Positions 3,749-61,016 of a stretch of 64,000 nucleotides of DNA are shown here, one piece after another. Where the stretch lies: NCBI GenBank assembly GCA_035610835.1, contig CM069444.1, positions 3,602,875 to 3,666,874 on the forward strand. The letters run 5' to 3'. This stretch comes from Ophiura sarsii. Its lineage: Eukaryota > Echinodermata > Ophiuroidea > Amphilepidida > Ophiuridae. The position numbers were made by a program, and so were the translations under genes. Position 1 is the stretch's first letter. Every line of letters starts with the position of its first letter. The notes under the pieces are model-generated. The model had not been told where the DNA came from and ran no database searches. It saw only the letters and a program-made list of their open reading frames with translations.

Positions 3749-3890
3749 GACATCCATGAATCTGTACACGGAGACTGATTGATGTTACGAAATCCATTGG
3801 GTAGATGCGTAGTGCCGTTGCGTCCAATATGGGTTGGGGCAAAAGAACTTCGAACGGTGCGTCCGCCTTTTCAGGTTTGACAATGAAAAT
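3749..3890 (-). CDS. Copy 1: discoidin domain 2, C-terminal exon (142 bp)
   Basis: This exon codes for the second half of an F5/8 type C (discoidin) domain. On the minus strand the acceptor 'tccgtag' precedes IFIVKPEKADAPFEVLLPQP, followed by ATALRIYPMDF and the closing SLRVQIHGC. The pattern 'RIYP ... LR.Q..GC' is the standard domain end, and the final Cys is expected to pair with the Cys at the domain start. The donor is 'tgtc|gtaagt', leaving one base (phase 1). That base joins the Thr-rich exon of the next downstream copy as CCA (Pro). In copy 1 no such downstream exon is seen inside the window. Reading through the donor would give a 36-residue tail and a stop at 3642. Confidence 0.85.
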
Positions 3891-4080
3891 CTACGGAATC
3901 ATAAAATGGTAACCCAAGTTATACTTCGTTGTATTCAAAACGTAGCTTAAGGCCTATAAATCTAACGACAAATACGTTACATATATAACATCTGTCGGTC
4001 AAATTCCTTTTACAGACCCGGTACACTGTAACGCAAATGGTAACTATTATTCATGTTCAAAGAGAGTTAAATGCGCTAAC

Positions 4081-4385
4081 CTGTCGTTCTTTGCTGCCGA
4101 TATCTGTTTTTAATACAGTTAGCCATTCATCACTGACGCCTTCTTGTGAATAAGTAATGTAGAATTGGGAAACATACGAATCAGCAAAACCTTGTGTGAG
4201 GACAGTGTTGATATCATACGGCGAATTGAAATTAAATTGAAGATATTCCTCGCCGGTTTCATCGGTTTTTGGTGTCCACGGGATACCATCGAGACGTCCC
4301 ATTACTTCTTCGCTATCGACTGTTTCGCTTTGTGAGGAATACACTATTTGGTCGTCCTCAACATCTATGGTCTCCAAGCAGACGG
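4081..4385 (-). CDS. Copy 1: discoidin domain 2, N-terminal exon (305 bp)
   Basis: This exon codes for about 101 residues that open the second F5/8 type C domain. The acceptor is 'attctacag' and the donor 'cgacag|gttagc'. The sequence begins VCLETIDVEDDQIVYSSQSE, the conserved first Cys plus the strand that normally holds 'I.D..I.ASS'. It continues with RLDGIPWTPK and YLQFNFNSPYDINTVLTQG, which match the family's 'AR L...W.P....YLQVDL...I..V.TQG', and then QFYITYSQEG. It starts in phase 1, completed by the G of the previous exon, and ends in phase 0. Discoidin domains bind phospholipid or glycan ligands; the ligand here is unknown. Confidence 0.9.
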
Positions 4386-4759
4386 CTGTAGAATATGGTT
4401 AACAATAATATTTAAGATTATATAACATTCGAACTTGAAGTTTTGAAATGTTCGGGCAGTAATATTTAGCATTTCACTATTAATATTTGGATACGGCATC
4501 GCAAAAAAAAAAATCTCGTGACACATTTAGCATGTTTAGTGTCAAATGAATTTACCTTTTTAAAAATCCCAGTAAACTCAGATTTCACTCCTGGGTAAAA
4601 TACGTAGCAATGTACACATGTACATTGAATATTCATATATAGTGATTTAATCTTTGGCAGTATGGGCTTATTCACTATGAAGGGGAATTTTTCCCACTCT
4701 TTATTAATGTTAAGTCCTTTTTCTCGTGTAAAACCTTCATCTACAGCGTTTTAACTTAC
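4386..4759 (-). other. Intron between discoidin domains (copy 1, 374 bp)
   Basis: No coding sequence or recognisable element in this intron, which contains an A-run at 4503-4512. In copy 2 the counterpart (18588-18793) is shorter by about 160 bp; copies 3 and 4 (38274-38636, 50500-50841) retain most of it. Confidence 0.6.
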
Positions 4760-4901
4760 CGCATCCTGATAATTCAACCCGGAATTCAATTGGTCCGTTC
4801 GATGACAATGGGCGAAGACGAATTCTTTGGACATTTTCCAGAGGAGGATTTAGCTCTGTTTCTTGGAGGGTGTCGCTGTCTTTGCCATTGAGCTTAAATT
4901 T
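4760..4901 (-). CDS. Copy 1: discoidin domain 1, C-terminal exon (142 bp)
   Basis: Second half of the first F5/8 type C domain, exactly the same length as its counterpart in domain 2, which suggests the two domains arose by duplication. The acceptor 'actttatag' is followed by KFKLNGKDSDTLQETELNPP, then ENVQRIRLRPLSSNGPIEF and the closing RVELSGC. The donor is 'ggatgcg|gtaagt' (phase 1). The exon joins directly to the first residues of domain 2 (SGC-A-VC), so the two domains are adjacent with almost no linker. All four copies are identical here. Confidence 0.9.
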
Positions 4902-6389
4902 CTATAAAGTGAGAGATATCGTTATACAAGGTCGATAATATAAGGAACTAAAGATTGGGTATAAATATACTTCCAGTAACTGTCAAAACATAATTATAAC
5001 AATCATGTTTTCGTTCGGTTATCCCCAAGGTCTCTAAGATATGTTTGGATCCCCGTTTTATAGGAACATTATCTCATACATCTAATCAGATGTGTCCTAC
5101 GTCGTAAGGCAGACTGTAAAAATTATTAAAGAAAATGAAATTATTGATTTCTTCGTAAGACCTACTTCTGGGGTCCAGGCAAACTGTCAGTGGATTACAC
5201 TAAAGACAGTTTAATGTTCTTTGCTATAGGGCGTACGAAATCAATAAGTTTCAATCAGATATCTATAACAGCGTGTCCCAAAAAAACTGGGTTCAAAAGT
5301 TTGCGAGCTTATAATGAAATAAGTAGGAAACATGGATAGTTTATATTTACGAATATCAAACAAAATATACCTGACCTTAATTGGGTAAACTCGGAAACCA
5401 ATCCAATGTAAACTTTTTTGAAATACAAAGATTTGAATAGAGCGTGGTCAGAACCCATTTGTCCCGATTTAAGGAAAAAACCATCCGTGCGTTGCATGAA
5501 ACTGTGCGCTACACATATGTCCAGTATTCCCGGCATGGGGTTATTATTCTCCGAAAGAACTTAACAATAACTCGGACGGACTATAACAAAGAACACTTTG
5601 TTTTAATATTTATGTAAATAATGAACTTGTATTATTGCAATATGATCAAGATAATTTTGTTTACTGCCCAAGTCTTTGTAAAGAATGAATGCAAAGGCGA
5701 AACGTTGATTAAGTCACAACAATGCGCAATTGCAACACATCGGGGTGTTCATTGAAAAGTGGGACAAATGGGTTTTGACCACGCTCTATTAACATCTTTG
5801 TATTTCAAACAGTTTATATTGGATTAATCACAGATATCCCTAATTATGAACTATCCATGTTTCCTACCTTCTTAGTTATAAGCTCGCAAACTTTAGAACC
5901 CAGTTTTTTGGGACACGCTGTATACCTTGCATATATTCCGAAACAATTATATTATCCTTTCAAACAAAATTACCAAATGACAGCTCTTGCATTTGGCATA
6001 ATCTGTACCCAAAGAAGATTCCTTGCACAGACCAGCATGCTTAGGACCACTAACACTGCCGACAAGGCTTTCCCCCAAATAAACGGTGTCAAACATGTGT
6101 TAAAGTAATTAGCAGCTGCCATGAAAGTAGTCTGACTTACAACTGTGAAAGAAGTCGAATCCCAATCAAATAAAATTTACATGTGTTATTCAACAAACAA
6201 AAAATAGGGTCTTTAAGAGAACCAAGAGAGGACTGAAGTCACAGCAACTTCCTACTTGCAGCAGGTTCTTGAATACCATTGTTTATAAGCGTTTCATTGC
6301 AATGTTATGTCAAAGTATGCTGGTGATGCTCAAGTATTCTTCATTTTAGTGTACCTAAGCTCTTCCAAAAATGAAGTGTTTATACATAC
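4902..6389 (-). other. Intron splitting discoidin domain 1 (copy 1)
   Basis: An intron of 1488 bp that splits domain 1 in phase 0. It contains the mariner-type foldback element at 5268-5921. The remainder (4902-5267 and 5922-6389) is AT-rich with no supported gene. Confidence 0.7.
5268..5921. mobile_element. Mariner-type foldback element (copy 1)
   Basis: The ends are 'acagcgtgtcccaaaaaa' and its reverse complement 'ttttttgggacacgctgt', and inverted similarity continues inward with interruptions for roughly 250 bp on each side. The 'cagcgtgtccc' terminus resembles Tc1/mariner ends. No transposase frame remains. It sits at the same place in every copy (19298-19945, 39141-39792, 51346-51995), so it was present before the array was amplified. 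Confidence 0.75.
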
Positions 6390-6673
6390 CCGAGGTTTAT
6401 TGGAATCCTTCTTCGTAATGTACTGCCATTCAGGCTCTTCGCTATCGGTCAAATATTGAACGCTGAATTGAGTAACAGTGCCTTGGGTTGTTATAACGGT
6501 GATTTGACGTGGAAAGATGAGTCCAATTTCGATGTACTCTTTCTCACCGGTTGGTTTCCATGGATCTCCGTTTACTCGGCCCGTTCCGGCTTTCGTATTA
6601 CTTGTACTATAGGATATCATGCTATCCGGAATTTTTCCATCTGCAATACCCATCTGTTCTCGGCATATTTGAA
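6390..6673 (-). CDS. Copy 1: discoidin domain 1, N-terminal exon (284 bp)
   Basis: First half of the first F5/8 type C domain. After the acceptor 'ttatacacag' the exon reads VQICREQMGIADGKIPDSMI, which fits the family start 'C...LGM..G.I.D..I'. It then has GRVNGDPWKP and YIEIGLIFPRQITVITTQG, followed by QFSVQYLTDS and EWQYI. The donor is 'cctcgg|gtatg' (phase 0). The two leading bases TT complete a Val codon with the G left by the 48-bp Thr-rich exon. The protein is identical in all four copies, although silent differences exist. Confidence 0.92.
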
Positions 6674-9435: not shown

Positions 9436-9483
9436 CTGTGGTGGTAGTTATAACTGTGGTTGATACAATTGAGGTAGTTGTAC
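9436..9483 (-). CDS. Copy 1: Thr-rich linker exon 4 (48 bp)
   Basis: A 48-bp exon with acceptor 'ccaatgtag' and donor 'ccacag|gtaag', phase 1 at both ends. It codes for TTTSIVSTTVITTTT, a Thr/Ser/Val stretch likely to be O-glycosylated. Spliced to the 284-bp exon it gives TTTT-VQICREQM, leading straight into discoidin domain 1. Short size alone would make it doubtful; the matching phases, clean splice sites and shared composition with the other linker exons support it. It is identical in all four copies (24880-24927, 43281-43328, 55494-55541). Confidence 0.75.
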
Positions 9484-9870: not shown

Positions 9871-9891
9871 CTGGTGTAGTACTTTGTTCCA
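9871..9891 (-). other. Possible 21-bp micro-exon, or relic of the 171-bp exon
   Basis: The sequence around 9847-9890 repeats the 3' end and donor of the 171-bp Thr-rich exon ('taagtattacctggtgtagt'). If the 'cccaaag' to its right acted as an acceptor, a 21-bp exon in phase 1 would add EQSTTP in frame. The acceptor is weak. Counterparts: 25315-25335, 43716-43736, 55929-55949. It may simply be a decayed duplicate. Confidence 0.3.
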
Positions 9892-10684
9892 CTTTGGGTC
9901 AGATATTGTTTGACCGTTAAAGGGTCAAGACCTGGAGTCGTTATGCAGACTTATTTGAAAGCGTTTATACATTAAACAACTAGAGAACAATTTAATATAT
10001 GGTATGTTGATAGAATGTGTGTATTCACTACCATTGATGTGTAATATATATTTATGTACAGAGAATGTAATTGATATTTACATGGACCATTCGTGAGTAA
10101 GTAAAATCTTATTCTAGGGTGTGTCAACATATTCAGGTATTGTTTATTCCTTATTGCATAAAAATATCGCACTGAGTTTTCATTATGTATGATGCCAATT
10201 GAGGTTATGATACTATTTGAACATGTTGGTCAAGTGGGCTATATATGGAATTAGTATACAGGCAGTGACAAAAAAAGTAATAGAGTTTTGAAGAAAAAAA
10301 AATTAAAATATCTCCCGTTAAATTTCTGTTTTGATGTTATGCGACGTGGATTTTGTAAGCTTTCGAATAAGCTTTGATTCATCACAATCGATGGTTGATA
10401 AGCAGATATATGATCAATTGTCTAAAGTTGTCATGAAATCTTTGGTTTAATCAATGGTAAAACCACTTGGATGATTATGAAAAGAAATCGAACCAGGAAC
10501 GTAGCAGTAGAGCGCTCTTGTGAGACAACAATGGTTCATTTCAAGTGGTTGAAAGTATTACAAAGAAGGTAAGGTCTTTACAAAGATCTGTAATGTGGGG
10601 TAGAATTAAAACCATCCCTTACTAAGAGCATGGCTGCCTAAAATTGGCTTTCATTATCCAGGCATTATCCATCAAAGACATTAT

Positions 10685-12876: not shown

Positions 12877-13047
12877 CTGGTGTAGTACTTTGTTTCACTG
12901 TTGAACTTTCCAAAAGTGTACCTGGTGTAGTACTTTGACTTTGTTCTACGGTTGAACTTTCCAATGGTGTACCTGGTGTAGTACTTTGACTTTGTTCTAC
13001 GGTTGAACTTTCCAATGCTGTGGCTGTGGCAATAGCAGCAGTAAGTG
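12877..13047 (-). CDS. Copy 1: Thr/Ser-rich linker exon 3 with internal repeats (171 bp)
   Basis: An exon with acceptor 'tatttttctag' and donor 'ccag|gtaatact', phase 1 at both ends. It begins LTAAIATATA and then carries three tandem repeats of about 17, 17 and 13 residues: LESSTVEQSQSTTPGTP, LESSTVEQSQSTTPGTL and LESSTVKQSTTPG. The Ser/Thr/Pro/Gly repeats without Cys are typical of mucin-like, O-glycosylated spacers. An open frame continues upstream across the acceptor to an ATG at 13102 (MFVVYVRIIVIF...), which is somewhat signal-peptide-like. The strong polypyrimidine acceptor makes an internal exon more likely. All four copies encode the same peptide. Confidence 0.8.
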
Positions 13048-14439: not shown

Positions 14440-14541
14440 CCGGCGTCGTTGGAATCTCTATATCGATTGTAGTTGTTTCTACGGTTGTTCTACCATTAGT
14501 AACACGCGTTGTTGACGTGGTTGTTGTTGGGGAATCGGATG
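14440..14541 (-). CDS. Copy 1: Thr-rich linker exon 2 (102 bp)
   Basis: An exon with acceptor 'tatgtacag' and donor 'cgccgg|gtgag', phase 1 at both ends, coding for 33 full codons: SDSPTTTTSTTRVTNGRTTV followed by ETTTIDIEIPTTP. About half of the residues are Thr or Ser. Copy 3 has one silent change (AGA to CGA). Confidence 0.8.
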
Positions 14542-14868: not shown

Positions 14869-14958
14869 TCTGTACAGCCACTTTGGTAGTTGTGGATTCC
14901 GTAGTCGTAACACTGGTTGTCGGAGTGGGCGAAAGTGTCGTTACGATGGCGTTAGGTG
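14869..14958 (-). CDS. Copy 1: Thr-rich linker exon 1 (90 bp)
   Basis: First exon of the cassette in transcription order. The acceptor is 'caacaattag' and the donor 'gtacaga|gtaagtt', phase 1 at both ends. It codes for PNAIVTTLSPTPTTSVTTTE followed by STTTKVAVQ. Its first two bases CA complete a Pro codon with the C left by the last discoidin exon of the copy to its right (17951-18092), giving HGC-PPNAIVTT. This is the join that links one array copy to the next in a single reading frame. Confidence 0.75.
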
Positions 14959-17950
14959 CTAATTGTTGAGCTAGATACAAATTATTTAATTAACATTATT
15001 ATCTAAATGTCATTAATAATTATAGATAGCCAGACACAAATCAAATAATTGTTGGTGCTGGTGTAGTTCGGGACTTTTGGGCGGATCGAAATATGGTTTG
15101 ACCCTCAACTACATGCAACAACAGGTTGTTCAACTGTTTTAGGTTTTGCGTGGTATCAGGAATACCTGAAATTGGTTATTTTCAAGATGGCCGCCAATAC
15201 CCTTATATGACCATAACTCAAGTATTATTCACCATGGAGATATCGGTTTTGAGTCTAACTCAATTAGACTAGTGAAGATATCATTGAACATTCACGTGTA
15301 CTATAAATCGAAGATGACGTCCTTAAGGGGGACTCAAGGAAGTGTTTGATTTGATATTTTGTGAGTGCTGTAATTATTGACTATTAATCAAATACATATA
15401 AAAACAAATATTTTTGGAAAGGAAATAGAATTGGTGTCAATTTTGACCAAAATGTTGAATTTTTGAGAAAATCATAAAATTCACTTTTTGGACCCAATTT
15501 TGTTGGACAAAGTCAACAAAAAAAAGTCGAATGAAAAATGCCCAAATCGCTAGATGATGATGTAAAGAAACTTACTTTTTGAAATTTTGACCAATAAGTG
15601 CCAAAAAAGTGGAAAGAAATGAAGACTTTTTTGTTGGCACTTTTTTAGTGAAAATACTTTTGTAAACATTTGAGTCATAGTTCAATAATTACAGCACTCA
15701 TAAAATTCCAAAAAAATCTTCCTTAACCCTAACCCTACCCCCCCACTTTTTTCAGAATTTTTTCTTCAATGTGGAAAATCGACCCAAATATCCCCCCGAT
15801 ATTTGATCCAGGGACCTCTCGCACCAGAGGCGAATAATTCCCCACTACGGCTGTCAAAGTTAGTTTGCGCAGTGTATTGCGCAAACTGTATGGGCTGGGT
15901 CCATTTTTTCATCCAAAAACTTCCACGTCGGGTGGTACCAACGTGCCCAGTCGTGGTATATTGTGGTATATGGTAGGGTTAGGGTTAAGTCCCCCCTTAA
16001 AGCCACAAATGTATGAATATTGCTCAATATCATGTATACCCCTTAACATTTAGTGTCTATCCCAATGTTTCAGGGCGCAAGGAACTCATTAAGATACTCA
16101 GGTGTACTGTAAATTTAAGATGACACCAAAATGGCCAATATATTGGTCAATGTATTTACCACCTCCTAGAGCCTAATTGCGACGGACGGGCCGGGCGACG
16201 GGGAGGAGGGGAGGTGGCGGGTTTTTGGGGTTACATGGGATATCCCTAAGAAAACATCTTTGTGAATCTATTTGTTTTAAACGATACTCGCACCACCCGC
16301 AGGGAACTAAAATCAAGACATCGTAATTATAAATCAGAACTATTAATATCATTTACGTCTTCAAATTATTGCAACATAAATTGATTTAGAAGCTAGCAAA
16401 AATGGCGAAAAATTACGTCCTTCCATTGAGTGTAACTCATACACTCTACAATTAAAATTGTTGATAGTACACCTGTATTTAATAAGTATAGCATAATAGT
16501 ATCATATAATACACTTTAGTGTATTTTTATGAGGTGTTGCAATATAAGCAGAATACCACCATTGGATTGTGTATCATTTTGTACAAAGTGCGAGTGTGAA
16601 ATACCGATTCTAAATTCATTTCTGCTAGCAAATAAAGGGTTTTATCAATCTATCTTTATTTTATTCCGCGTATTTTAATTGAAAACAAACCACACATTTG
16701 AAAAGGGAGAAATTTGCAGTTAGACGCTTCAGTGGTTTATTCATTTAAATGGTTGGTGGCCAAAGGGATGGGAGAGGATCCTCGGGATCGACCCTAATTA
16801 TTTAATCAACACCTTGGTCCCTCGGCAGATTTTAATTTTGTGTTGGGTATTCAAGAGTGTGACTAATACATATTTACCGGTCGACAAAGGAGGCGCTAGT
16901 ATAAGTATTAAAATACTTAAAAACCGAGGATGGATCCCTTGGACAACCCCGCTTTGGTCACTGTACAGTTGAGAACACCATTTCATTTGTTTGGTTAATA
17001 AAATGACCTTCTATGTAGGACAATACTATGACTTTTTGATATTCATGACCTACCTTCATTCGAGATAAAAATGACGGCATCTTACGGCCGTATTTAAGCG
17101 AAACGATAGGTAAGGTTGGTCGGTCGAACGTTAAACTATTTTTCTAAATGTTCTTGATTTTTATAAACAAAAATTGTGAAACTTTTGAACAGTTTTCTGA
17201 AATTTGGAGACATTTCAAAATAAATCAATCTCAAATTCGAATAAAATGGGTCTGCCGTGCCCGTGGGTACCATTTACATAGGCCTGTTATCGAAGACAGT
17301 TCAATGACTCGAGCAGAATAAAACAAACAAATTCATCCTTACTGTATATTTGGCAAATTACCAGATCGTGGTATATAAATCACCACGCGCGATCGCGTTA
17401 TTCTGCGTTCTACATCTTACTGCAAATCTATTTGCAAAGTGCATTATACATGTACGCGCGCTCAAAAGCAGTGCATCACACTAAAAAAAGTAACAACTTG
17501 CCGGATTAGTTATACTATAAATTGGTAAAGATTTCTGATTTCGATTTGTATCAATAAAGTTAAGAAAATGCATTAAATTAACATTAAAAGTCATTTGGAA
17601 TGAAATAAAAACCCCGACATGCACAAGAAAGGGAATACATGATGTACATTAAGTATGTTTGCTTGGCTATCGGGTGATTTGGAGGGACAGGTCCACAATG
17701 GACCTAGTGATCCATTATAACACCATTCATGCACCAAAAAGACTACACGGCTGAACAATAACAGGAAAGTTAACCTGTGACTGAACCTTAACCGCCAAAG
17801 CGTGTTCTGGGGAATTCAACTATCAGGGGAGAATACTTTTTCGTCAGCGCATGATAGCCAACGTAATCGCGGCATGAGATAGTAGTGTGGTGTTTTGAGG
17901 TGCAGAGGAAAGTTTGGGGTTAATAACCTGTAAATCACCGTAATACTTAC
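14959..17950 (-). other. Linking intron between cassettes of copies 2 and 1
   Basis: If the array is one gene, this 2992-bp stretch is the intron joining discoidin 2 of copy 2 to the linker of copy 1. It holds the unit junction (15701), telomere-like pair (about 15722-15989), GC-rich patch (near 16170) and 750-bp segment (16871-17614). The equivalent stretches are 34598-37636 and 48822-49861, the latter shortened by deletion to about 1040 bp. Confidence 0.6.
16871..17614. repeat. 750-bp segment, copy 2
   Basis: Counterpart of 2663-3413. It carries variants shared with copy 3 but not copy 1, such as 'ctgtatatttgg' and 'ggaatgaaat'. Confidence 0.55.
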
Positions 17951-18092
17951 GACATCCATGAATCTGTACACGGAGACTGATTGATGTTACGAAATCCATT
18001 GGGTAGATGCGTAGTGCCGTTGCGTCCAATATGGGTTGGGGCAAAAGAACTTCGAACGGTGCGTCCGCCTTTTCAGGTTTGACAATGAAAAT
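17951..18092 (-). CDS. Copy 2: discoidin domain 2, C-terminal exon
   Basis: Identical in protein to 3749-3890, ending SLRVQIHGC and leaving phase 1. It joins in frame to 14869-14958. Confidence 0.88.
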
Positions 18093-18282: not shown

Positions 18283-18587
18283 CTGTCGTTCTTTGCTGCC
18301 GATATCTGTTTTTAATACAGTTAGCCATTCATCACTGACGCCTTCTTGTGAATAAGTAATGTAGAATTGGGAAACATACGAATCAGCGAAACCTTGTGTG
18401 AGGACAGTGTTGATATCATACGGCGAATTGAAATTAAATTGAAGATATTCCTCGCCGGTTTCATCGGTTTTTGGTGTCCACGGGATACCATCGAGACGTC
18501 CCATTACTTCTTCGCTATCGACTGTTTCGCTTTGTGAGGAATACACTATTTGGTCGTCCTCAACATCTATGGTCTCCAAGCAGACGG
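18283..18587 (-). CDS. Copy 2: discoidin domain 2, N-terminal exon
   Basis: Same protein as 4081-4385, with one silent difference (Phe codon in TQGF). Splice sites are unchanged. The preceding intron is shortened in this copy. Confidence 0.9.
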
Positions 18588-18793: not shown

Positions 18794-18935
18794 CGCATCC
18801 TGATAATTCAACCCGGAATTCAATTGGTCCGTTCGATGACAATGGGCGAAGACGAATTCTTTGGACATTTTCCAGAGGAGGATTTAGCTCTGTTTCTTGG
18901 AGGGTGTCGCTGTCTTTGCCATTGAGCTTAAATTT
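18794..18935 (-). CDS. Copy 2: discoidin domain 1, C-terminal exon
   Basis: Identical to 4760-4901, ending RVELSGC; phase 0 in, phase 1 out. Confidence 0.9.
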
Positions 18936-20413: not shown

Positions 20414-20697
20414 CCGAGGTTTATTGGAATCCTTCTTCGTAATGTACTGCCATTCAGGCTCTTCGCTATCGGTCAAATATTGAACGCTGAATTGAGTAAC
20501 AGTGCCTTGGGTTGTTATAACGGTGATTTGACGTGGAAAGATGAGTCCAATTTCGATGTACTCTTTTTCACCGGTTGGTTTCCATGGATCTCCGTTTACT
20601 CGGCCCGTTCCGGCTTTCGTATTACTTGTACTATAGGATATCATGCTATCCGGAATTTTTCCATCTGCAATGCCCATCTGTTCTCGGCATATTTGAA
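20414..20697 (-). CDS. Copy 2: discoidin domain 1, N-terminal exon
   Basis: Same protein as 6390-6673. It differs silently in the GEKE region (GAA in place of GAG) and in the MGIA region (GGC in place of GGT). Confidence 0.92.
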
Positions 20698-23082: not shown

Positions 23083-23324
23083 ATGAATTCAGTTGATATC
23101 TAGTTGATATTTAGCTGATATGAACTCAGTTTAGCTGGTATGAATTCAATTTAGCCGGTATGAATTCAGTTTATCTGGTATAAATTCAGTTTAGCTGGTA
23201 TCAGTTGAGCTGGTACGATTTCAGTTTAGCTGGTATGAATTCAGTTTAGATGGTATGAATTCAGTTTAGATGGTATGAATTCAGTTTAGATGGTATAAAT
23301 ACAGTTTAGATGGTATGATGGTAT
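23083..23324. repeat. 20-bp minisatellite (copy 2), interrupted
   Basis: Same repeat as 9063-9310. A LINE is inserted at its right end; the remaining few bases resume after 24744. Confidence 0.85.
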
Positions 23325-24686
23325 CGTCCTGTTTCTAATATCAAATTTGTTGCCAAACTTATCGAAAAAGCTGTTGCCACACAACTGAAACAGCACATGT
23401 CTCGGCACGATCTTGAGGAGCTATACCAGTCTGCTTATAAGACACATAACAGTACAGAAACGGCGCTTTTAAAAGTTAAAGACGATGTACTCATGGCGAT
23501 GGACAAGTCGCATATAGTTTTTCTTGTTTTATTGGATCTGTCTGCAGCCTTTGACACTATCGACCATACTGTTTTACTTAGGAGAATGAACACAGAGCTA
23601 GGTGTATCAGGTACTGCCCTACAATGGTTTAAGTCATACCTCTCTGGTAGACAGAGCCGCGTGTCCATTGGCAACAGCTACTCAGATCCTGTGGATCTCA
23701 CATATGGTCTACCGCAAGGATCCATTCTTGGTCCTTTAAAGTTTTTAATCTATACGCTCCCTCTCGGAAACATCATTCGCCGCCATGGCTTAGACTTTCA
23801 CCTTTATGCAGACGACACGCAGTTATACTGTTCCTTTAACCCCAAAATACCTGGTGCTATGCAACACGCAATCGAGAGGCTACAACTGTGTATTTGTGAA
23901 ATCCAAAATTGGATGACCATTAACATGTTGAAATTAAATGAGAGCAAAACAGAGTTTATTGTGTTTGGATCACCCCATTTTCTCCAGAGCTTGCCACCTG
24001 TGTCCCTGGCAATTGGTGATGCACATATTGAAGCAACGCTGTCTGTTCGGAACCTGGGTGTAAAATTTGATGCAAATATGACCATGACCAAACAAATATC
24101 TAGCCTCTGTCAATCTACACATTACCAGTTAAGAAACATCCGTAGAATAAAGCGATACCTCGATAAAGACACTCTTCATCATGTCGTTAGAGCTTTAGTT
24201 ATCTCTCGTCTTGACTATGGTAATCTTCTTCTCTTTGGTGCTACGGAACATGAATTGAACAGAGTTCAAAGATTGCAGAACAATGCCGCTCGGTTGATAT
24301 GTTCCATATCCATGCGTGACCATATTACTCCCACGCTTAAAGAACTCCACTGGCTGCCCATACGGGAAAGGATTCAATTCAAACTCTGTCTTTTTGTCTT
24401 CAAAAGCATGAACAATACTGCACCTGGATATTTATGCAATTTACTGTCACCATATGTTCCTCGAAGAGCTCTTCGTTCTGCAAATGACATTACTCGCCTA
24501 AATGTTCCTAGGACAAATAAGGTCTTGGGTCAGAAATCTTTCAGTGTAGCTGGTCCACGGGCATGGAACAATCTCCCTCGTACCATAAGAGAAACTGACA
24601 ATATCTCTCATTTTCGTTGTAGTCTAAGACTCACCTTTTTCCATGCTAAATGTATTTTGTGTACTGATGTGTTACATGCGCTATGA
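23325..24686 (+). CDS. LINE ORF2 fragment: reverse transcriptase, 453 codons (5'-truncated)
   Basis: Non-LTR retrotransposon reverse transcriptase, the enzyme that copies LINE RNA into DNA at the target site. In order, the frame shows RPVSNIKFVAKLIEKAV near the start and QSAYKTHNSTETALL. Motif A is LLDLSAAFDTIDH with the catalytic Asp, motif B is GLPQGSILGPL, and the catalytic motif C is YADDTQ. After the fingers and palm come SRLDYGNLLLFGA, LQNNAARLI, LHWLPIRERIQFKL and the C-terminal SFSVAGPRAWNNLP. The frame stops at 24684-24686. The open frame may begin at the junction, but no native start is present: the endonuclease and the first part of the RT are missing, so it cannot be an autonomous element. 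The frame is otherwise undamaged, suggesting a young insertion. Confidence 0.9.
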   Translation, partial: RPVSNIKFVAKLIEKAVATQLKQHMSRHDLEELYQSAYKTHNSTETALLKVKDDVLMAMDKSHIVFLVLLDLSAAFDTIDHTVLLRRMNTELGVSGTALQWFKSYLSGRQSRVSIGNSYSDPVDLTYGLPQGSILGPLKFLIYTLPLGNIIRRHGLDFHLYADDTQLYCSFNPKIPGAMQHAIERLQLCICEIQNWMTINMLKLNESKTEFIVFGSPHFLQSLPPVSLAIGDAHIEATLSVRNLGVKFDANMTMTKQISSLCQSTHYQLRNIRRIKRYLDKDTLHHVVRALVISRLDYGNLLLFGATEHELNRVQRLQNNAARLICSISMRDHITPTLKELHWLPIRERIQFKLCLFVFKSMNNTAPGYLCNLLSPYVPRRALRSANDITRLNVPRTNKVLGQKSFSVAGPRAWNNLPRTIRETDNISHFRCSLRLTFFHAKCILCTDVLHAL

Positions 24687-24879: not shown

Positions 24880-24927
24880 CTGTGGTGGTAGTTATAACTG
24901 TGGTTGATACAATTGAGGTAGTTGTAC
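24880..24927 (-). CDS. Copy 2: Thr-rich linker exon 4
   Basis: Identical to 9436-9483, coding for TTTSIVSTTVITTTT. It lies about 135 bp beyond the LINE, which is therefore inside the intron and leaves the exon intact. Confidence 0.75.
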
Positions 24928-32515: not shown

Positions 32516-32686
32516 CTGGTGTAGTACTTTGTTTCACTGTTGAACTTTCCAAAAGTGTACCTGGTGTAGTACTTTGACTTTGTTCTACGGTTGAACTTTC
32601 CAATGGTGTACCTGGTGTAGTACTTTGACTTTGTTCTACGGTTGAACTTTCCAATGCTGTGGCTGTGGCAATAGCAGCAGTAAGTG
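32516..32686 (-). CDS. Copy 2: Thr/Ser-rich linker exon 3
   Basis: Same peptide as 12877-13047. Its donor lies about 150 bp from the end of the TTAA-flanked element, which therefore sits in the intron and leaves the exon intact. Confidence 0.8.
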
Positions 32687-34078: not shown

Positions 34079-34180
34079 CCGGCGTCGTTGGAATCTCTAT
34101 ATCGATTGTAGTTGTTTCTACGGTTGTTCTACCATTAGTAACACGCGTTGTTGACGTGGTTGTTGTTGGGGAATCGGATG
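34079..34180 (-). CDS. Copy 2: Thr-rich linker exon 2
   Basis: Identical peptide to 14440-14541, with the same splice sites and phases. Confidence 0.8.
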
Positions 34181-34507: not shown

Positions 34508-34597
34508 TCTGTACAGCCACTTTGGTAGTTGTGGATTCCGTAGTCGTAACACTGGTTGTCGGAGTGGGCGAAAGTGTCGTTACGATGGCGTTAGGTG
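34508..34597 (-). CDS. Copy 2: Thr-rich linker exon 1
   Basis: Identical peptide to 14869-14958. It accepts the phase-1 splice from 37637-37778 of copy 3. Confidence 0.75.
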
Positions 34598-35397
34598 CTA
34601 ATTGTTGAGCTAGATACAAATTATTTAATTAACATTATTATCTAAATGTCATTAATAATTATAGATAGCCCGACACAAATCAAATATTTGTTGGTGCTGG
34701 TGTAGTTCGGGACTTTTGGGCGGATCGAAATATGGTTTGACCCTCAACTACATGCAACAACAGGTTGTTTAACTGTTTTAGGTTTTGCGTGGTATCAGGA
34801 CTACCTGAAATTGGTTATTTTCAAGATGGCCGCCAATACCCTGATATGACCATAACTCAAGTATTATTCACCATGGAGATATCGGTTTTGAGTCTAACTC
34901 AATTAGACTAGTGAAGATATCATTGAACATTCATGTGTACTATAAATCGAAGATGACGTCCTTAAGGGGGACTCAAGGAAGTTTTTGATTTGATATTTTG
35001 TGAGTGCTGTAATTATTGAATTATTAATCAAATACATATAAAAACAAATATTTTTGGAAAGGAAATAGAATTGGTGTCAATTTTGACCAAAAATGTTGAA
35101 TTTTTGAGAAAATCATAAAATTCACTTTTTAGACCCAATTTTGTTGGACAAAGTCAACAAAAAAAAGTCGAATGAAAAATGCTCAAATCGCTAGATGATG
35201 ATGTAAAGAAACTTATTTAGGGAAGGTTTTATTTTAACCTAATCTGATATTTTTTGAAATTTTGACCAATAAGTGCCAAAAAAGTGGAAACAAATGAAGA
35301 CTTTTTTGTTGGCACTTTTTTAGTGAAAATACTTTTGTATACATTTGAGTCATAGTTCAATAATTACAGCACTCATAAAATTCCAATAAAATCTTCC

Positions 35398-37636: not shown

Positions 37637-37778
37637 GACATCCATGAATCTGTACACGGAGACTGATTGATGTTACGAAATCCATTGGGTAGATGCGTAG
37701 TGCCGTTGCGTCCAATATGGGTTGGGGCAAAAGAACTTCGAACGGTGCGTCCGCCTTTTCAGGTTTGACATTGAAAAT
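37637..37778 (-). CDS. Copy 3: discoidin domain 2, C-terminal exon (variant)
   Basis: As 3749-3890 but with one replacement near the start: IFNV in place of IFIV (ATT to AAT). Splice sites and phase are intact. Confidence 0.88.
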
Positions 37779-37968: not shown

Positions 37969-38273
37969 CTGTCGTTCTTTGCTGCCGATATCTGTTTTTA
38001 ATACAGTTAGCCATTCATCACTGACGCCTTCTTGTGAATAAGTAATGTAGAATTGGGAAACATACGAATCAGCGAAACCTTGTGTGAGGACAGTGTTGAT
38101 ATCATACGGCGAATTGAAATTAAATTGAAGATATTCCTCGTCGGTTTCATCGGTTTTTGGTGTCCACGGGATACCATCGAGACGTCCCATTACTTCTTCG
38201 CTATCGATTGTTTCGCTTCGTGAGGAATACACTATTTGGTCGTCCTCAACATCTATGGTCTCCAAGCAGACGG
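37969..38273 (-). CDS. Copy 3: discoidin domain 2, N-terminal exon (variant)
   Basis: As 4081-4385 but with three replacements: SSQSE to SSRSE, ETVDS to ETIDS, and DETGEE to DETDEE. With the change in the following exon, nearly all amino-acid variation seen among the four cassettes is in this copy's domain 2. Confidence 0.9.
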
Positions 38274-38636: not shown

Positions 38637-38778
38637 CGCATCCTGATAATTCAACCCGGAATTCAATTGGTCCGTTCGATGACAATGGGCGAAGACGAAT
38701 TCTTTGGACATTTTCCAGAGGAGGATTTAGCTCTGTTTCTTGGAGGGTGTCGCTGTCTTTGCCATTGAGCTTAAATTT
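38637..38778 (-). CDS. Copy 3: discoidin domain 1, C-terminal exon
   Basis: Identical to 4760-4901. Confidence 0.9.
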
Positions 38779-40260: not shown

Positions 40261-40544
40261 CCGAGGTTTATTGGAATCCTTCTTCGTAATGTACTGCCAT
40301 TCAGGCTCTTCGCTATCGGTCAAATATTGAACGCTGAATTGAGTAACAGTGCCTTGTGTTGTTATAACGGTGATTTGACGTGGAAAGATGAGTCCAATTT
40401 CGATGTACTCTTTCTCACCGGTTGGTTTCCATGGATCTCCGTTTACTCGGCCCGTTCCGGCTTTCGTATTACTTGTACTATAGGATATCATGCTATCCGG
40501 AATTTTTCCATCTGCAATGCCCATCTGTTCTCGGCATATTTGAA
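40261..40544 (-). CDS. Copy 3: discoidin domain 1, N-terminal exon
   Basis: Same protein as 6390-6673; shares a silent ACC to ACA change with copy 4 in ITVITTQG. Confidence 0.92.
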
Positions 40545-43280: not shown

Positions 43281-43328
43281 CTGTGGTGGTAGTTATAACT
43301 GTGGTTGATACAATTGAGGTAGTTGTAC
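43281..43328 (-). CDS. Copy 3: Thr-rich linker exon 4
   Basis: Identical to 9436-9483. Confidence 0.75.
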
Positions 43329-46743: not shown

Positions 46744-46914
46744 CTGGTGTAGTACTTTGTTTCACTGTTGAACTTTCCAAAAGTGTACCTGGTGTAGTAC
46801 TTTGACTTTGTTCTACGGTTGAACTTTCCAATGGTGTACCTGGTGTAGTACTTTGACTTTGTTCTACGGTTGAACTTTCCAATGCTGTGGCTGTGGCAAT
46901 AGCAGCAGTAAGTG
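46744..46914 (-). CDS. Copy 3: Thr/Ser-rich linker exon 3
   Basis: Same peptide, splice sites and internal repeats as 12877-13047. Confidence 0.8.
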
Positions 46915-48302: not shown

Positions 48303-48404
48303 CCGGCGTCGTTGGAATCTCTATATCGATTGTAGTTGTTTCTACGGTTGTTCGACCATTAGTAACACGCGTTGTTGACGTGGTTGTTGTTGGGGAATCG
48401 GATG
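48303..48404 (-). CDS. Copy 3: Thr-rich linker exon 2
   Basis: Same peptide as 14440-14541, with one silent Arg codon change. Confidence 0.8.
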
Positions 48405-48731: not shown

Positions 48732-48821
48732 TCTTTACAGCCACTTTGGTAGTTGTGGATTCCGTAGTCGTAACACTGGTTGTCGGAGTGGGCGAAAGTG
48801 TCGTTACGATGGCGTTAGGTG
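48732..48821 (-). CDS. Copy 3: Thr-rich linker exon 1 (variant)
   Basis: As 14869-14958 but the last full codon is AAG in place of CAG (Gln to Lys), next to the donor 'a|gtaagtt'. It accepts the phase-1 splice from 49862-50003 of copy 4 across a much shortened intron. Confidence 0.75.
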
Positions 48822-48853
48822 CTAATTGTTGTGCTAGATACAAATTATTTAAT

Positions 48854-49311
48854 ATGAAGTTAAACTTTCGATCTCAACACAAGAAATATTTACCTGGAAT
48901 TTTCAGGTGTTACTACACCTTTCATCAGCAGACTAATGACTCGACTTGACCTTTTGGAGGTGTGACGTCAGAATCGGGTCATAGACTCTTGGTAATTTGT
49001 ACCTGCACCCGTCTTTGTTGAGTGATGGTTGGTTGGCTCTGATGTAAATAGCCTCCTTGACACCTCTCTCGAACCAACGAGGATCCCTATCCAAGATCTT
49101 GACTTTGTCTAAGTCAACCTCGGACGAGGTGGAACTAGGACGCCTGTGCTCTAGCGTCACACCTCCAAAAGGTCAAGTCGAGTCATTAGTCTGCTGATGA
49201 AAGGTGTAGTAACACCTGAAAAATCCAGGTAAATATTTCTTGTGTTGAGATCGAAAGTTTAACTTCATATTATTTATCACCAACACAGATGAACTTTCAT
49301 TCTAACAAATG
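48854..49311. mobile_element. Foldback insertion with Penelope-like coding remnant
   Basis: A 458-bp insertion flanked by 'atttaat' at 48847-48853 and 49312-49318, a likely 7-bp target duplication. Arms of 117 bp (48851-48967 and 49155-49271) are almost perfect inverted repeats. Between them lies a minus-strand coding remnant. It occurs only at this copy junction, so it followed the amplification. Penelope-like elements often leave inverted or partly duplicated copies; that origin is inferred from the remnant's sequence. Confidence 0.75.
48933..49160 (-). pseudogene. GIY-YIG / Penelope-like element C-terminal remnant
   Basis: The 75-codon minus-strand frame contains VDLDKVKILDRDPRWFERGV, KEAIYIRANQPSLNKDGCRY and KLPRVYDPIL. 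The pattern 'ILDR...W..R..KEAI.I....P.LN...G...L...Y...L' is one I associate with the C-terminal part of GIY-YIG endonuclease regions in Penelope-like retroelements. The catalytic GIY and YIG motifs themselves are not present, and both ends of the frame run into the inverted arms. It is a fragment, not a working gene. Confidence 0.55.
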
Positions 49312-49861
49312 ATTTAATTAACATTAATTAACATTATTTGACAAAGTGCATCTTACGCGCGCTCAAAAGCAATGCATCACACTAAAAAAAGTAAACAACT
49401 TGCCGGATTAGTTATACTATAAATGGGTAAAAGATTTCTGATTTCGATTTGTATCAATAAAGTTAAGAAAATGCATTAAATTAACATTAAAAGTCATTTG
49501 GAATGAAATAAAAAACCCGACATGCACAAGAAAGATTATACATCATGTACATTGAGTATGGTTGCCTGGCTATCGGGTGATTCAGAGGGACTGGTCCACA
49601 ATGGACCTGGTGATCCATTATAACACCATTCATGTACCAAAAAGACTAATCGTTTACACGGCTGAACAACAACAGGAAAGTTAACCTGTGACTGAAGCTT
49701 AACCTCCAAAGCGTGTTCTGGGGAATTCAACTATCAGGGGAGAATACTTTTTCGTCAGCGCATGATAGCCAACGTGATCGCGGCATGAGATAGTAGTGTG
49801 GTGTTTTGAGTTGCAGAGGAAAGGTTGGGGTTAATAACCTGTAAATCACCGTAATACTTAC

Positions 49862-50003
49862 GACATCCATGAATCTGTACACGGAGACTGATTGATGTTA
49901 CGAAATCCATTGGGTAGATGCGTAGTGCCGTTGCGTCCAATATGGGTTGGGGCAAAAGAACTTCGAACGGTGCGTCCGCCTTTTCAGGTTTGACAATGAA
50001 AAT
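49862..50003 (-). CDS. Copy 4: discoidin domain 2, C-terminal exon
   Basis: Same protein as 3749-3890. It lies only about 1.04 kb from the next cassette's first exon (48821), owing to the junction deletion. Confidence 0.88.
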
Positions 50004-50194: not shown

Positions 50195-50499
50195 CTGTCG
50201 TTCTTTGCTGCCGATATCTGTTTTTAATACAGTTAGCCATTCATCACTGACGCCTTCTTGTGAATAAGTAATGTAGAATTGGGAAACATACGAATCAGCG
50301 AAACCTTGTGTGAGGACAGTGTTGATATCATACGGCGAATTGAAATTAAATTGAAGATATTCCTCGCCGGTTTCATCGGTTTTTGGTGTCCACGGGATAC
50401 CATCGAGACGTCCCATTACTTCTTCGCTATCGACTGTTTCGCTTTGTGAGGAATACACTATTTGGTCGTCCTCAACATCTATGGTCTCCAAGCAGACGG
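50195..50499 (-). CDS. Copy 4: discoidin domain 2, N-terminal exon
   Basis: Same protein as 4081-4385 and 18283-18587. Confidence 0.9.
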
Positions 50500-50841: not shown

Positions 50842-50983
50842 CGCATCCTGATAATTCAACCCGGAATTCAATTGGTCCGTTCGATGACAATGGGCGAAGA
50901 CGAATTCTTTGGACATTTTCCAGAGGAGGATTTAGCTCTGTTTCTTGGAGGGTGTCGCTGTCTTTGCCATTGAGCTTAAATTT
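50842..50983 (-). CDS. Copy 4: discoidin domain 1, C-terminal exon
   Basis: Identical to 4760-4901. Confidence 0.9.
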
Positions 50984-52463: not shown

Positions 52464-52747
52464 CCGAGGTTTATTGGAATCCTTCTTCGTAATGTACTGC
52501 CATTCAGGCTCTTCGCTATCGGTCAAATATTGAACGCTGAATTGAGTAACAGTGCCTTGTGTTGTTATAACGGTGATTTGACGTGGAAAGATGAGTCCAA
52601 TTTCGATGTACTCTTTCTCACCGGTTGGTTTCCATGGATCTCCGTTTACTCGGCCCGTTCCGGCTTTCGTATTACTTGTACTATAGGATATCATGCTATC
52701 CGGAATTTTTCCATCTGCAATGCCCATCTGTTCTCGGCATATTTGAA
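52464..52747 (-). CDS. Copy 4: discoidin domain 1, N-terminal exon
   Basis: Same protein as 6390-6673; shares the silent ACA change with copy 3. Confidence 0.92.
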
Positions 52748-55493: not shown

Positions 55494-55541
55494 CTGTGGT
55501 GGTAGTTATAACTGTGGTTGATACAATTGAGGTAGTTGTAC
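55494..55541 (-). CDS. Copy 4: Thr-rich linker exon 4
   Basis: Identical to 9436-9483. Confidence 0.75.
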
Positions 55542-58944: not shown

Positions 58945-59115
58945 CTGGTGTAGTACTTTGTTTCACTGTTGAACTTTCCAAAAGTGTACCTGGTGTAGTA
59001 CTTTGACTTTGTTCTACGGTTGAACTTTCCAATGGTGTACCTGGTGTAGTACTTTGACTTTGTTCTACGGTTGAACTTTCCAATGCTGTGGCTGTGGCAA
59101 TAGCAGCAGTAAGTG
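58945..59115 (-). CDS. Copy 4: Thr/Ser-rich linker exon 3
   Basis: Same peptide and splice sites as 12877-13047. Confidence 0.8.
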
Positions 59116-60497
59116 CTAGAAAAATATGGTCCACAAATATGACTATTATTCTAACATAAACAACAAACATAATATGAACATTTGTATAGCGCTCTTACAC
59201 ATATCGCAGCGCTTAACAAAATAAAAGCATTACACAATAAAAAAGTATTAAACACTACTTGCACTATGACGATGGAATAATTAAGTTGAGTTTTAAAACA
59301 AAATTGGGTCAGTGATGAGGAATACCGTGTGACGCGGTAAACTGTAAAAATCCGAGTGTTAGAGGCAGAACGTGAAAATGTTTCAAATATCAGAATTTCG
59401 CCAGGGTTTGAGCTTATAAGAGAGGGAAATGATGTTTGTAACATACATTATAAGATTCAAGACTATTAGTCGGGGATATACGGGGGTTACCGTGCATCCC
59501 CCAGGACTCCCCCAAACCAACTTTTTTGACTTCATGTCATGTTCCTAAAATAGATTCCAGATATCAATAAGAATGATTTTGTTATGCTAAGGGATTATTC
59601 AAGATGGTGTCCAAGATGGCCGCCAAAACTGGTCCAAATTCATAAAGTGACATATATCAATCAAAATGTATGGTGAAAGTATAGTCTTGATAATGGAATG
59701 TATGTATTAGACCACTAGTAACTCATATCCAGTACAATTGTTTTTTTAACATTTACCTAAATCCAAAATAAGAGTGTATATTGCATCACATTCACCAACT
59801 AGTACATGTATGTTCTAAACTGGTAAGCTATTGCTTTTATATATAAGACCCATCTCTGTGATAACTTTGATTATGTATCACTTTCCAAAATGATGTTAAA
59901 TGACCTAAAACAATTGTTTTGTATTGCAAATGACCATACTATGTAATACAAATACCCCAAATATAATAAGACAACATTTGCTATAGTTCTATGGTAAAGC
60001 CTAGGGGCTGTATATCTAGTTTTAGTATTTTAAAATATCCAAGATGGCTGCAAAAGGTTAAAATTACTGAAAAGCAGTATTAGTTTATTGTTAGTATTAC
60101 ATTAGATATGACCACATTATTATATCTATAGCTTTTAATCCACCCAGTAAACGTATTTCGACGTGACAAGGTATGGTTGAATGGTTAGTTGTCTAAAATA
60201 GAATGGCTGCAATCACATATTGTAACAAACAAACCATATTGGAGATAATGTCATTTTTATTCACGTTTAATAGATATTGAGAATAACTCAAGTTTGGTAC
60301 AAGGCATCAATTATTCCGAAAAAAGCTAATATTGATATTTTGACTCAATATTATTAAGGATTGGTGTAACTATTGATTTCTACTTTCATGTCAGAGCAGG
60401 TTGTATATAGTTGTTTGTACGCGTCATTAAAACACGGGGATACACACAAATCTACATATAAATATATAATATACTTTTCTTTACTCTTCATACTCAC

Positions 60498-60599
60498 CCG
60501 GCGTCGTTGGAATCTCTATATCGATTGTAGTTGTTTCTACGGTTGTTCTACCATTAGTAACACGCGTTGTTGACGTGGTTGTTGTTGGGGAATCGGATG
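60498..60599 (-). CDS. Copy 4: Thr-rich linker exon 2
   Basis: Same peptide as 14440-14541. Confidence 0.8.
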
Positions 60600-60926
60600 C
60601 TGTACATACACAAACGATATGAACTTCATGTTATTCATTATTCATAAAAGATTTGTGTACGATTCGAATAGAGAAAATATTTGATATCGATCTTTAAGCT
60701 CCATGAAAATCTCTGTTGATCTGATCGCTTTTAACATGGAACTGTTTAGTGTATTTTGTTTTTGAAAACGATGAACTATTGGATTATGGTGGCTGGCATA
60801 AACGCCTACAACTTGTTACAGTTGACCGAATATTTGTTAATACGTGTAGGTAGTTTAACTTGTATCGCGCACATGGACGCTATTAAACATTTGCAAACAT
60901 TATATCTACACCATTTCTTAACTTAC

Positions 60927-61016
60927 TCTGTACAGCCACTTTGGTAGTTGTGGATTCCGTAGTCGTAACACTGGTTGTCGGAGTGGGCGAAAGTGTCGTT
61001 ACGATGGCGTTAGGTG
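60927..61016 (-). CDS. Copy 4: Thr-rich linker exon 1
   Basis: Same peptide as 14869-14958. It would accept the splice from discoidin domain 2 of copy 5, which lies beyond the window. Confidence 0.75.

Follow-up and report, generated by a model that had tools for sequence, protein, structure and literature searches.

A tandem discoidin and threonine-rich cassette, probably the multiplied middle of a very large mucus- or glue-protein-like gene, in Ophiura sarsii

Hemocytin/hemolectin and SCO-spondin are characterised by VWD, C8, TIL and LDLa domains, and hemocytin contains discoidin domains as well. As far as its accessible description goes, a limpet protein matched to SCO-spondin and hemolectin/hemocytin (P-vulgata_3) comprises two C8, three VWD, two TIL and five LDLa domains (PMC7333891). 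In the gel-forming mucins MUC5AC, MUC5B and MUC2, and in VWF, VWD-C8-TIL assemblies are found on the 5' side. According to the available part of the source, Thr-rich (PTS) segments alternate in MUC5AC and MUC5B with near-identical folded CysD domains, and the human mucin domain occupies one exon (PMC9712336).

Among echinoderms, two kinds of protein are pertinent in the accessible portions of the literature: (i) Sfp1 of the sea star and Sfp1-like of the sea urchin, very large secreted proteins with VWD, C8, TIL, discoidin and EGF-type domains, Sfp1 having 3853 residues and four discoidin domains (PMC9382459, PMC7037938); and (ii) sea urchin Nectin, a secreted protein of six repeated discoidin domains (PMC7037938). 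A literature search returned nothing linking hemocytin, discoidin and echinoderms, and the main text of the genome paper of the brittle star Amphiura filiformis mentions neither discoidin nor mucin.

Here, a repeated block of exons in Ophiura sarsii is described from a window of 64,000 nucleotides (the whole stretch of DNA analysed) and its surroundings. The block probably represents a recent multiplication of the middle part of a very large gene resembling those of mucus or glue proteins.

The eight-exon cassette in the window

The initial annotation reported four tandem copies of eight minus-strand exons. This is confirmed: 32 of 32 exons have GT-AG sites, and exon lengths (102, 102, 171, 48, 284, 142, 305 and 142 nt for exons 1 to 8) are identical among copies. 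The exons, in window coordinates, are the following:

60927..61028, minus: unit D exon 1, Thr-rich, phase 1-1 (alternative acceptor of the initial annotation at 61016)
60498..60599, minus: unit D exon 2, Thr-rich, phase 1-1
58945..59115, minus: unit D exon 3, Thr/Ser-rich, internal 51-bp (17-residue) repeats, phase 1-1
55494..55541, minus: unit D exon 4, Thr-rich, phase 1-1
52464..52747, minus: unit D exon 5, discoidin 1 first exon, phase 1-0 (Pfam)
50842..50983, minus: unit D exon 6, discoidin 1 second exon, phase 0-1 (Pfam)
50195..50499, minus: unit D exon 7, discoidin 2 first exon, phase 1-0 (Pfam)
49862..50003, minus: unit D exon 8, discoidin 2 second exon, phase 0-1 (Pfam)
48834..49861, minus: shortest inter-copy intron of the window (D exon 8 to C exon 1), 1028 bp
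48732..48833, minus: unit C exon 1, Thr-rich
48303..48404, minus: unit C exon 2, Thr-rich
46744..46914, minus: unit C exon 3, Thr/Ser-rich
43281..43328, minus: unit C exon 4, Thr-rich
40261..40544, minus: unit C exon 5, discoidin 1 first exon
38637..38778, minus: unit C exon 6, discoidin 1 second exon
37969..38273, minus: unit C exon 7, discoidin 2 first exon
37637..37778, minus: unit C exon 8, discoidin 2 second exon
34508..34609, minus: unit B exon 1, Thr-rich
34079..34180, minus: unit B exon 2, Thr-rich
32516..32686, minus: unit B exon 3, Thr/Ser-rich
24880..24927, minus: unit B exon 4, Thr-rich
20414..20697, minus: unit B exon 5, discoidin 1 first exon
18794..18935, minus: unit B exon 6, discoidin 1 second exon
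18283..18587, minus: unit B exon 7, discoidin 2 first exon
17951..18092, minus: unit B exon 8, discoidin 2 second exon
14869..14970, minus: unit A exon 1, Thr-rich (initially annotated as 14869-14958)
14440..14541, minus: unit A exon 2, Thr-rich
12877..13047, minus: unit A exon 3, Thr/Ser-rich
9436..9483, minus: unit A exon 4, Thr-rich
6390..6673, minus: unit A exon 5, discoidin 1 first exon (Pfam)
4760..4901, minus: unit A exon 6, discoidin 1 second exon (Pfam)
4081..4385, minus: unit A exon 7, discoidin 2 first exon (Pfam)
3749..3890, minus: unit A exon 8, discoidin 2 second exon (Pfam)

The cassette length is constant across copies, as had been claimed, but it amounts to 1296 bp (432 codons) instead of 1284 bp, because exon 1 had been started at an internal AG, 12 nt downstream of the acceptor used here. 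The latter is in frame as well and is preceded by a more pyrimidine-rich tract, as judged by eye. The four window copies do begin and end in phase 1, and the C left over from exon 8 (...HGC+C) forms, as predicted, a Pro codon with the next exon 1 in 4 of 4 cases (CCT in A, B and D; CCA in C). Owing to this symmetric 1-1 phase, copies can be gained or lost with the frame unbroken.

When the four window cassettes are joined (4 x 432), there are 0 stops in 1728 codons, and the exon 8 donor and exon 1 acceptor are intact in 4 of 4 copies. The protein encoded by units A, B and D is identical, and that of unit C differs by 5 amino acids (against 2-5 silent changes). Exons 1 to 4 of every window unit constitute a Pro/Thr/Ser-rich region (judged by eye). 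The domain search suggested for the module by the initial annotation found PF00754 (F5/8 type C, discoidin) in two stretches, with E 3.7e-16 and 59.9 bits versus a cut-off of 28.2.

One transcript encoding [Thr linker-discoidin-discoidin]n had been proposed. The single frame through the four window copies and the conserved exon 8/exon 1 splice sites support a single transcript in silico, whose product, however, probably does not consist simply of this formula. Alternatively, the units could be separate tandem genes or fragments, each with an overlooked first and last exon. Such an arrangement would fit the observations that unspliced exon 8 reads 18-35 codons further before a stop, and that AATAAA or ATTAAA is found in 8 of the 8 inter-copy intervals examined. 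Nevertheless, it is very unlikely in view of (i) the preserved donor and acceptor sites and the one frame in the window copies; (ii) the shortest intervals, two of 800 bp and one of 1028 bp, into which a promoter and the last and first exons of adjacent genes would hardly fit; and (iii) the mucin-like order of the same-strand flanking domains. By eye, the 48834..49861 interval is partly retroelement-remnant-like.

Extent and divergence of the first array

Array 1 comprises nine copies, four of them inside the window, and runs gap-free from window +101.6 kb to -31.1 kb. Every cassette exon is present nine times, on one strand and in one order, with some exon 3 copies being fragmentary. When the genome was searched with the discoidin pair and 134 of 160 candidates were scored, each of the 39 matches fell on C4. 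The array region accounts for 36 of them, a weaker neighbour at 3699 kb for 1, and a paralogue lying upstream for the remaining 2. A stand-alone four-copy gene was rejected in view of the nine copies and the same-strand flanking domain exons.

The array was initially thought to grow by unequal crossing over of a roughly 14-kb intragenic unit. Long shared intronic repeats fit intragenic duplication, but a constant 14-kb unit is ruled out by the exon 8-to-exon 8 spacing in the window (14.2, 19.7 and 12.2 kb), which is uneven because insertions differ between copies.

Six of the nine units were compared (all but F, Y and G), and variable columns make up 83/19440 (0.43%) of exons versus 1515/152409 (0.99%) of the other aligned positions (15 pairs). 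On three non-overlapping pairs, this difference has a Fisher P = 3e-5, P values being approximate here and for dN/dS since both tests use related copies. For the diverged unit G versus unit A, dN is 0.087 and dS 0.186 (NG86), which, like the exon conservation, speaks for a single giant gene; by YN00, the values are 0.097 and 0.141, with a ratio near 0.7, which, like the changes in unit C, speaks against it.

Copy number rests on the assembly and might have been inflated or scrambled in a heterozygous nanopore genome. In the accessible part of the Amphiura filiformis genome paper, 3.22% heterozygosity, a Flye nanopore assembly and haplotype removal are reported. Units of a second array (array 2a) are near-identical, differing by 0-0.65% over 3 kb (18 units), as inflation would predict. 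Array-1 units, instead, diverge by 0.91-1.12% outside exons in a star-like manner with no two-haplotype split (15 pairs) and bear different insertions, and there is no N gap in array 1 or in the read part of array 2 (read to about -140 kb). Inflation is, hence, unlikely; for array 1, a two-haplotype artefact is ruled out by the star-like pairwise divergence.

Flanking domains, second array and paralogue

In 5' to 3' order on the same strand, VWD-C8-TIL exons and then Cys-rich and VWC-like exons precede the nine discoidin-pair cassettes. On the 3' side there are discoidin, Cys-rich, TIL, VWC-like and LDLa exons, a Thr-rich frame, a discoidin exon and array 2. Located features include (window coordinates):

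132.7, 126.5 and 116.8/116.2 kb, minus: VWD (Pfam)
131.1 and 113.8 kb, minus: C8 (Pfam)
129.8, 124.2, 121.7 and 113.1 kb, minus: TIL, upstream side (Pfam)
-71.9 to -73.4 kb, minus: Thr-rich open frame, 507 residues

Pfam cut-offs were passed by 15 of 28 flanking segments (27 distinct) picked by eye: VWD in 4 (three domains), C8 in 2, TIL in 5, LDLa in 1 and F5/8 type C in 3. No match over the cut-off was obtained for the other 13, which include several Cys-rich exons and a putative LDLa exon on the 5' side. CysD was not matched in 29 flanking and array-2 segments (28 distinct) nor in the array-1 cassette. The best match of the VWD3 exon is MUC5AC (E 1.4e-28), followed by MUC5B, MUC2 and VWF. 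A homologue search in a large protein collection gave 487 candidates, 0 of them at E <= 0.001. On the opposite (plus) strand, only reverse transcriptase and simple repeats could be recognised in the first 70 residues of the frames of >=130 aa, several of which could not be assigned; this was counted in favour of a single gene.

Array 2 contains 55 copies of another phase 1-1 Thr-rich cassette in two blocks (40 + 15), and a TIL exon, of phase 1-0 as elsewhere, sits between arrays 2a and 2b. The array-2 domain weakly resembles discoidin and has no Pfam match; its exons are no more conserved than the rest (20/1133 versus 43/1924 variable columns, P = 0.43). Both points speak against the single-gene reading. 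The initial annotation knew of no described protein with the architecture of the cassettes. This view gives way once the flanks are considered: the same-strand VWD-C8-TIL, VWC-like, LDLa and extra discoidin exons, together with the larger second array, place the locus near gel-forming mucin, SCO-spondin, hemocytin and Sfp1-type proteins.

A giant discoidin/mucin gene could also be confined to array 1, the VWD gene and the array-2 gene being distinct neighbours. In line with this, neither gene end was found in the stretch read: no first exon with a signal-like start exceeded the set thresholds at window 134.4-160 kb, and no terminal exon was seen in the stretch, which stops short of the 3' end. 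Furthermore, the lone N gap in the 324 kb read (GC 36.5%) lies outside array 1, at 124.6 kb, among the 5' VWD/TIL exons, and flanking exon phases match incompletely. With best-scoring splice sites, 10 of 17 neighbouring downstream pairs are in phase (P = 0.027 against 1/3), a count made by hand on 18 downstream exon cores, leaving out the 5' exons, with general consensus frequencies for splice sites and with the X second exon and the following Cys-rich exon scored at duplicate copies near -18.5 and -21.2 kb. In the 7 out-of-phase pairs, exons may have escaped detection.

Two facts speak against distinct neighbours and make them quite unlikely: (i) the upstream paralogue (C4:3861-3899 kb, 0.12-0.18 Mb upstream) holds VWD, discoidin and TIL matches on one strand within one stretch of ~37 kb, with one match to each discoidin first exon and the same domain order, unamplified; and (ii) VWD, C8, TIL and discoidin are combined in Sfp1-type proteins, in the accessible parts of their descriptions (PMC9382459, PMC7037938).

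Proposed product and its relation to known systems

Judging from sequence, the array is likely to be the amplified central region of one giant secreted-protein gene of the gel-forming mucin/VWF/SCO-spondin/hemocytin/Sfp1 kind. The VWD assemblies, array 1, the downstream exons and array 2 would be part of one transcript. N-terminal VWD assemblies would multimerise the protein via disulphides, Thr-rich segments would be O-glycosylated and stretch the chain, and the repeated discoidin pairs would offer many weak glycan or lipid binding sites. Such a protein would form a mucus or adhesive fibre that is long, multivalent and able to be cross-linked. Its cassettes would multiply when long intronic repeats cross over unequally or undergo gene conversion.

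More tentatively, a transcription unit of >400 kb might specify one secreted polypeptide of at least ~25,000 residues, containing two arrays of Thr-rich linker plus domain pair, each amplified on its own and locked in phase (array 1 ~3,900 and array 2 ~20,800 residues, assuming a full cassette in each counted unit). Such a size would be in the range of titin, and repeat number could then vary freely among individuals.

A different function for the same gene, that of a clotting or immune lectin like insect hemocytin, is possible but rather doubtful. It would agree with the PDB entries closest to the discoidin pair (neuropilins, lactadherin, the coagulation factors V and VIII and a factor V-like venom protein) and with the expanded FA58C/discoidin families of Ophiura sarsii vadicola, linked by the authors to coagulation after amputation in the available part of that work (PMC11959729). 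On the other hand, the echinoderm proteins with such a domain mix are, in the accessible sources, tube-foot adhesives (PMC9382459, PMC7037938). SCO-spondin-like echinoderm proteins are also mentioned in the part of the literature available, which tempers the tube-foot argument.

If the model of one giant mucus or adhesive gene holds, the locus would yield a polymer constructed along the lines of the human gel-forming mucins, a multi-exon discoidin pair standing where they have CysD, and cassettes would have been amplified at least twice within one gene. The length of one structural protein could differ greatly between individuals here, and the neighbouring paralogue without amplification provides a natural before-and-after comparison.

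Compared with the gel-forming mucins, the 5' VWD-C8-TIL assemblies and the alternation of Thr-rich segments with near-identical folded domains are shared, but the folded partner is a discoidin pair and each repeat occupies eight exons across 12-20 kb. The C-terminal cystine knot of such mucins was not encountered in the stretch read, which ends before the 3' end of the gene. With hemocytin/hemolectin and SCO-spondin, the locus has VWD, C8, TIL and LDLa domains in common; it differs in the massive amplification of a discoidin/Thr cassette and in the lack of a match to TSP1, the thrombospondin type 1 repeat of SCO-spondin, among the 28 segments (27 distinct) scanned by Pfam. The discoidin repetition recalls Nectin, for which the accessible part of the source does not mention VWD/C8/TIL or Thr-rich linkers. 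VWD, C8, TIL and discoidin, which Sfp1-like proteins combine, all lie on one strand here and would be joined in a shared transcript, but, in contrast to Sfp1, array 1 alone has nine discoidin pairs, and Thr-rich linkers and a second array are present.

The array 1 cassette and its copies

The cassettes at this locus are modular and phase-symmetric and have been multiplied introns included, with exon conservation in array 1. Aligning the window to itself reveals long tandem blocks of 96-99.7% identity. The four copies of eight minus-strand exons described in the initial annotation were recovered in full: all 32 exons were located, GT-AG is present at every site, and exon lengths are equal across the four units (D, C, B and A, from 5' to 3'). 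Each cassette comprises (i) four Thr-rich exons (E1-E4); and (ii) four exons encoding a discoidin pair (E5-E8). It had been described as 1284 bp long, in phase 1 on entry and exit; both phases stand, but the length is here 1296 bp, the earlier figure deriving from an AG acceptor 12 bases further into exon 1 (either choice keeps the frame). The frame is indeed unbroken across copies, as had been claimed, since the D-C-B-A cassettes joined 5' to 3' give 1728 codons with 0 stops. Units A, B and D encode an identical protein, from which unit C differs by five residues. The expected discoidin content is also borne out: two stretches match Pfam F5/8 type C, and the nearest relatives of known structure, judged by sequence, include proteins with discoidin domains in tandem pairs: a factor V-like venom protein, neuropilins, and coagulation factors V and VIII.

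Once 200 kb of flanking sequence is included, and in the one assembly from which the copy numbers of both arrays come, each of E1-E8 is present in nine copies between +101.6 kb and -31.1 kb (window coordinates, negative values lying beyond the window start), although some of the E3 copies are fragments. The units follow one another 5' to 3' as G, F, E, D, C, B, A, Z and Y, then a final Thr exon set. Unit G, the 5'-most, is diverged: its E5-E8 share 87-92% identity with those of unit A, and the exon search of the window and its 200 kb of neighbours revealed no adjacent E1-E3. The sequence read holds a single N gap, at 124.6 kb. In the genome search (assembly of 1.57 Gb; the window is C4:3602875-3666874), the discoidin-pair query had 39 matches, on contig C4 only, with 134 of 160 candidates scored: (i) 36 in the array region; (ii) one in a weaker neighbouring exon (3699 kb); and (iii) two in an upstream paralogue.

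Variable columns make up 0.43% of exon versus 0.99% of other aligned columns (15 pairwise comparisons, six of the nine units; Fisher P = 3e-5 for three non-overlapping pairs). Between units G and A, dN and dS are 0.087 and 0.186 by NG86, and 0.097 and 0.141 by YN00. Exon conservation and dN/dS provide moderate evidence that the array 1 copies are maintained as coding sequence, and the five amino-acid changes in unit C count against it. Growth of the array probably proceeded by exchange between long homologous introns, because divergence among units is low (~1% outside exons) and star-like.

Other features lie between the exons. Every window unit has, 3-7 kb 3' of exon 3, a short second copy of that exon's end with a GTAATA donor (9871-9896, and at 25.3, 43.7 and 55.9 kb); it could be an additional mini-exon or a relic. 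An intron of unit B (23319-24686, plus strand) holds a 455-aa open frame for a reverse transcriptase (PF00078, E 1.6e-25, first 217 residues), and introns of other units hold shorter, related-looking open frames. The short D-C inter-copy intron contains a sequence with inverted ends (48854-49330), whose peptide, judged by eye, resembles the end of a Penelope-like element. Two copies of a 9.8-kb block, offset by 15.4 kb and sharing 98.6% identity, lie at -9.0 to -18.7 kb and at -24.4 to -34.1 kb; the block contains an extra diverged discoidin domain (X), 3' of the Thr exons.

Flanking exons and the extent of the gene

The Pfam scan covered 28 segments (27 distinct, two being array 2 domains; the two halves of one VWD were counted apart), 15 of which matched over cut-off. 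The flanking exons are as follows (same strand as array 1, minus; over cut-off unless indicated):

132.7, 126.5 and 116.8/116.2 kb, 5' of array 1: VWD
131.1 and 113.8 kb, 5' of array 1: C8
129.8, 124.2, 121.7 and 113.1 kb, 5' of array 1: TIL
96.5 kb, within the 5' edge of array 1: additional discoidin
-33.3 and -73.5 kb, 3' of array 1: discoidin
-57.9 kb, 3' of array 1: TIL
-64 kb, 3' of array 1: LDLa
+103.4 and -58.6 kb: VWC-like (below cut-off)

The other 13 of the 28 segments had no Pfam match over cut-off; one of these is the Cys-rich exon at 109.7 kb, whose assignment as LDLa was dropped for that reason. The VWD3 exon at ~+116 kb is closest in sequence to MUC5AC, MUC5B, MUC2 and VWF. A Thr-rich open frame of 507 residues lies at -71.9 to -73.4 kb. 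Among plus-strand frames of at least 130 aa, reverse-transcriptase fragments and simple repeats were recognised, and several others were not (first 70 residues inspected).

The upstream paralogue (C4:3861-3899 kb) has matches to (i) VWD, at 3898.6 kb (47% identity); (ii) discoidin, at 3889.3 kb (44%) and 3885.9 kb (48%), one per discoidin first exon; and (iii) TIL, at 3861.3 kb (57%). From VWD to TIL it spans ~37 kb, versus 174 kb for the corresponding exons at the array locus. This layout counts in favour of a single gene, together with the one strand, the one order, the in-frame window junctions and the short inter-copy intervals (800 bp at the shortest). Against it count the incomplete phase match downstream, where 10 of 17 neighbouring exon pairs are in phase (top-scoring splice sites), and the lack of a start or end exon, none having been identified in the sequence read, which stops short of the gene's 3' end. 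The seven out-of-phase pairs are possibly explained by undetected exons.

More VWD/TIL exons occur on both strands at C4:3.86-4.30 Mb (4.02, 4.09 and 4.29 Mb), which suggests that large, related VWD genes are clustered next to the array locus.

A second, different Thr-rich array

Array 2 starts at -82.96 kb, 3' of array 1, with a five-exon cassette (a-e) of 1134 bp, phase 1-1 like that of array 1: a Thr-rich exon, then a two-exon domain with a Thr-rich end, then a two-exon domain. Among 18 units read, the 16 that fit the strict exon pattern are all open; in the other two, one exon pattern is missed by a single base. Exons b + c have 55 copies genome-wide (59 of 59 candidates scored), 40 at C4:3397-3520 kb (block 2a) and 15 at C4:3311-3357 kb (block 2b, ~88% identical to the query), and none outside these two blocks. 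The matches carry one stop per row, which in the units read lies just beyond the exon edge. In 24 spot reads, array 2 was matched by 7/7 at -150 to -205 kb and 5/5 inside 2b, and by 0/4 at -210 to -240 kb and 0/8 at -300 to -500 kb. Between the blocks lies one further exon:

C4:3381252-3381419: TIL, phase 1-0 as in the downstream TIL exons (by eye)

The array 2 domain is unrecognised by Pfam; compared by profile, it resembles the discoidin exons weakly, yet scores better than 8/8 shuffles. Exons in array 2 are no more conserved than introns. Within 2a, at -113 to -139 kb, unit length steps from ~3057 to ~3152-3194 bp past the ninth interval, and therefore growth probably took place in more than one round.

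Putative product and known systems

Judging from the families, VWD-C8-TIL assemblies would mediate protein polymerisation, Thr-rich linkers would be O-glycosylated, and repeated discoidin pairs would confer high-avidity glycan or lipid binding. The product is likely a mucus or adhesive fibre, with a hemocytin-like function in clotting or immunity as a possible alternative. In the brittle star Ophiura sarsii vadicola, FA58C/discoidin gene families are reported to be significantly expanded, an expansion that the authors link to coagulation (PMC11959729). The reported expansion fits the many discoidin clusters in this genome.

Dense clusters of discoidin exons also occur at C16:17.98-18.20 Mb, C16:12.40-12.43 Mb, C18:1.99-2.01 Mb and C6:17.82-17.90 Mb; several of those outside C4 are regularly spaced (a lower bound, with 150 of 1703 candidates scored). 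These clusters suggest that discoidin amplification is widespread in this animal.

No published description of the array locus was found in the open-access literature searched, as far as its accessible text goes. The closest systems are: (i) Asterias rubens Sfp1, with 3853 residues and four discoidin domains, together with Sfp1-like proteins of sea urchins, all sharing the domain set of the array locus (PMC9382459, PMC7037938); (ii) limpet P-vulgata_3, with the same set in part (PMC7333891); and (iii) human MUC5AC and MUC5B, in which near-identical CysD domains alternate with PTS segments (PMC9712336), whereas here discoidin pairs occupy the CysD position.
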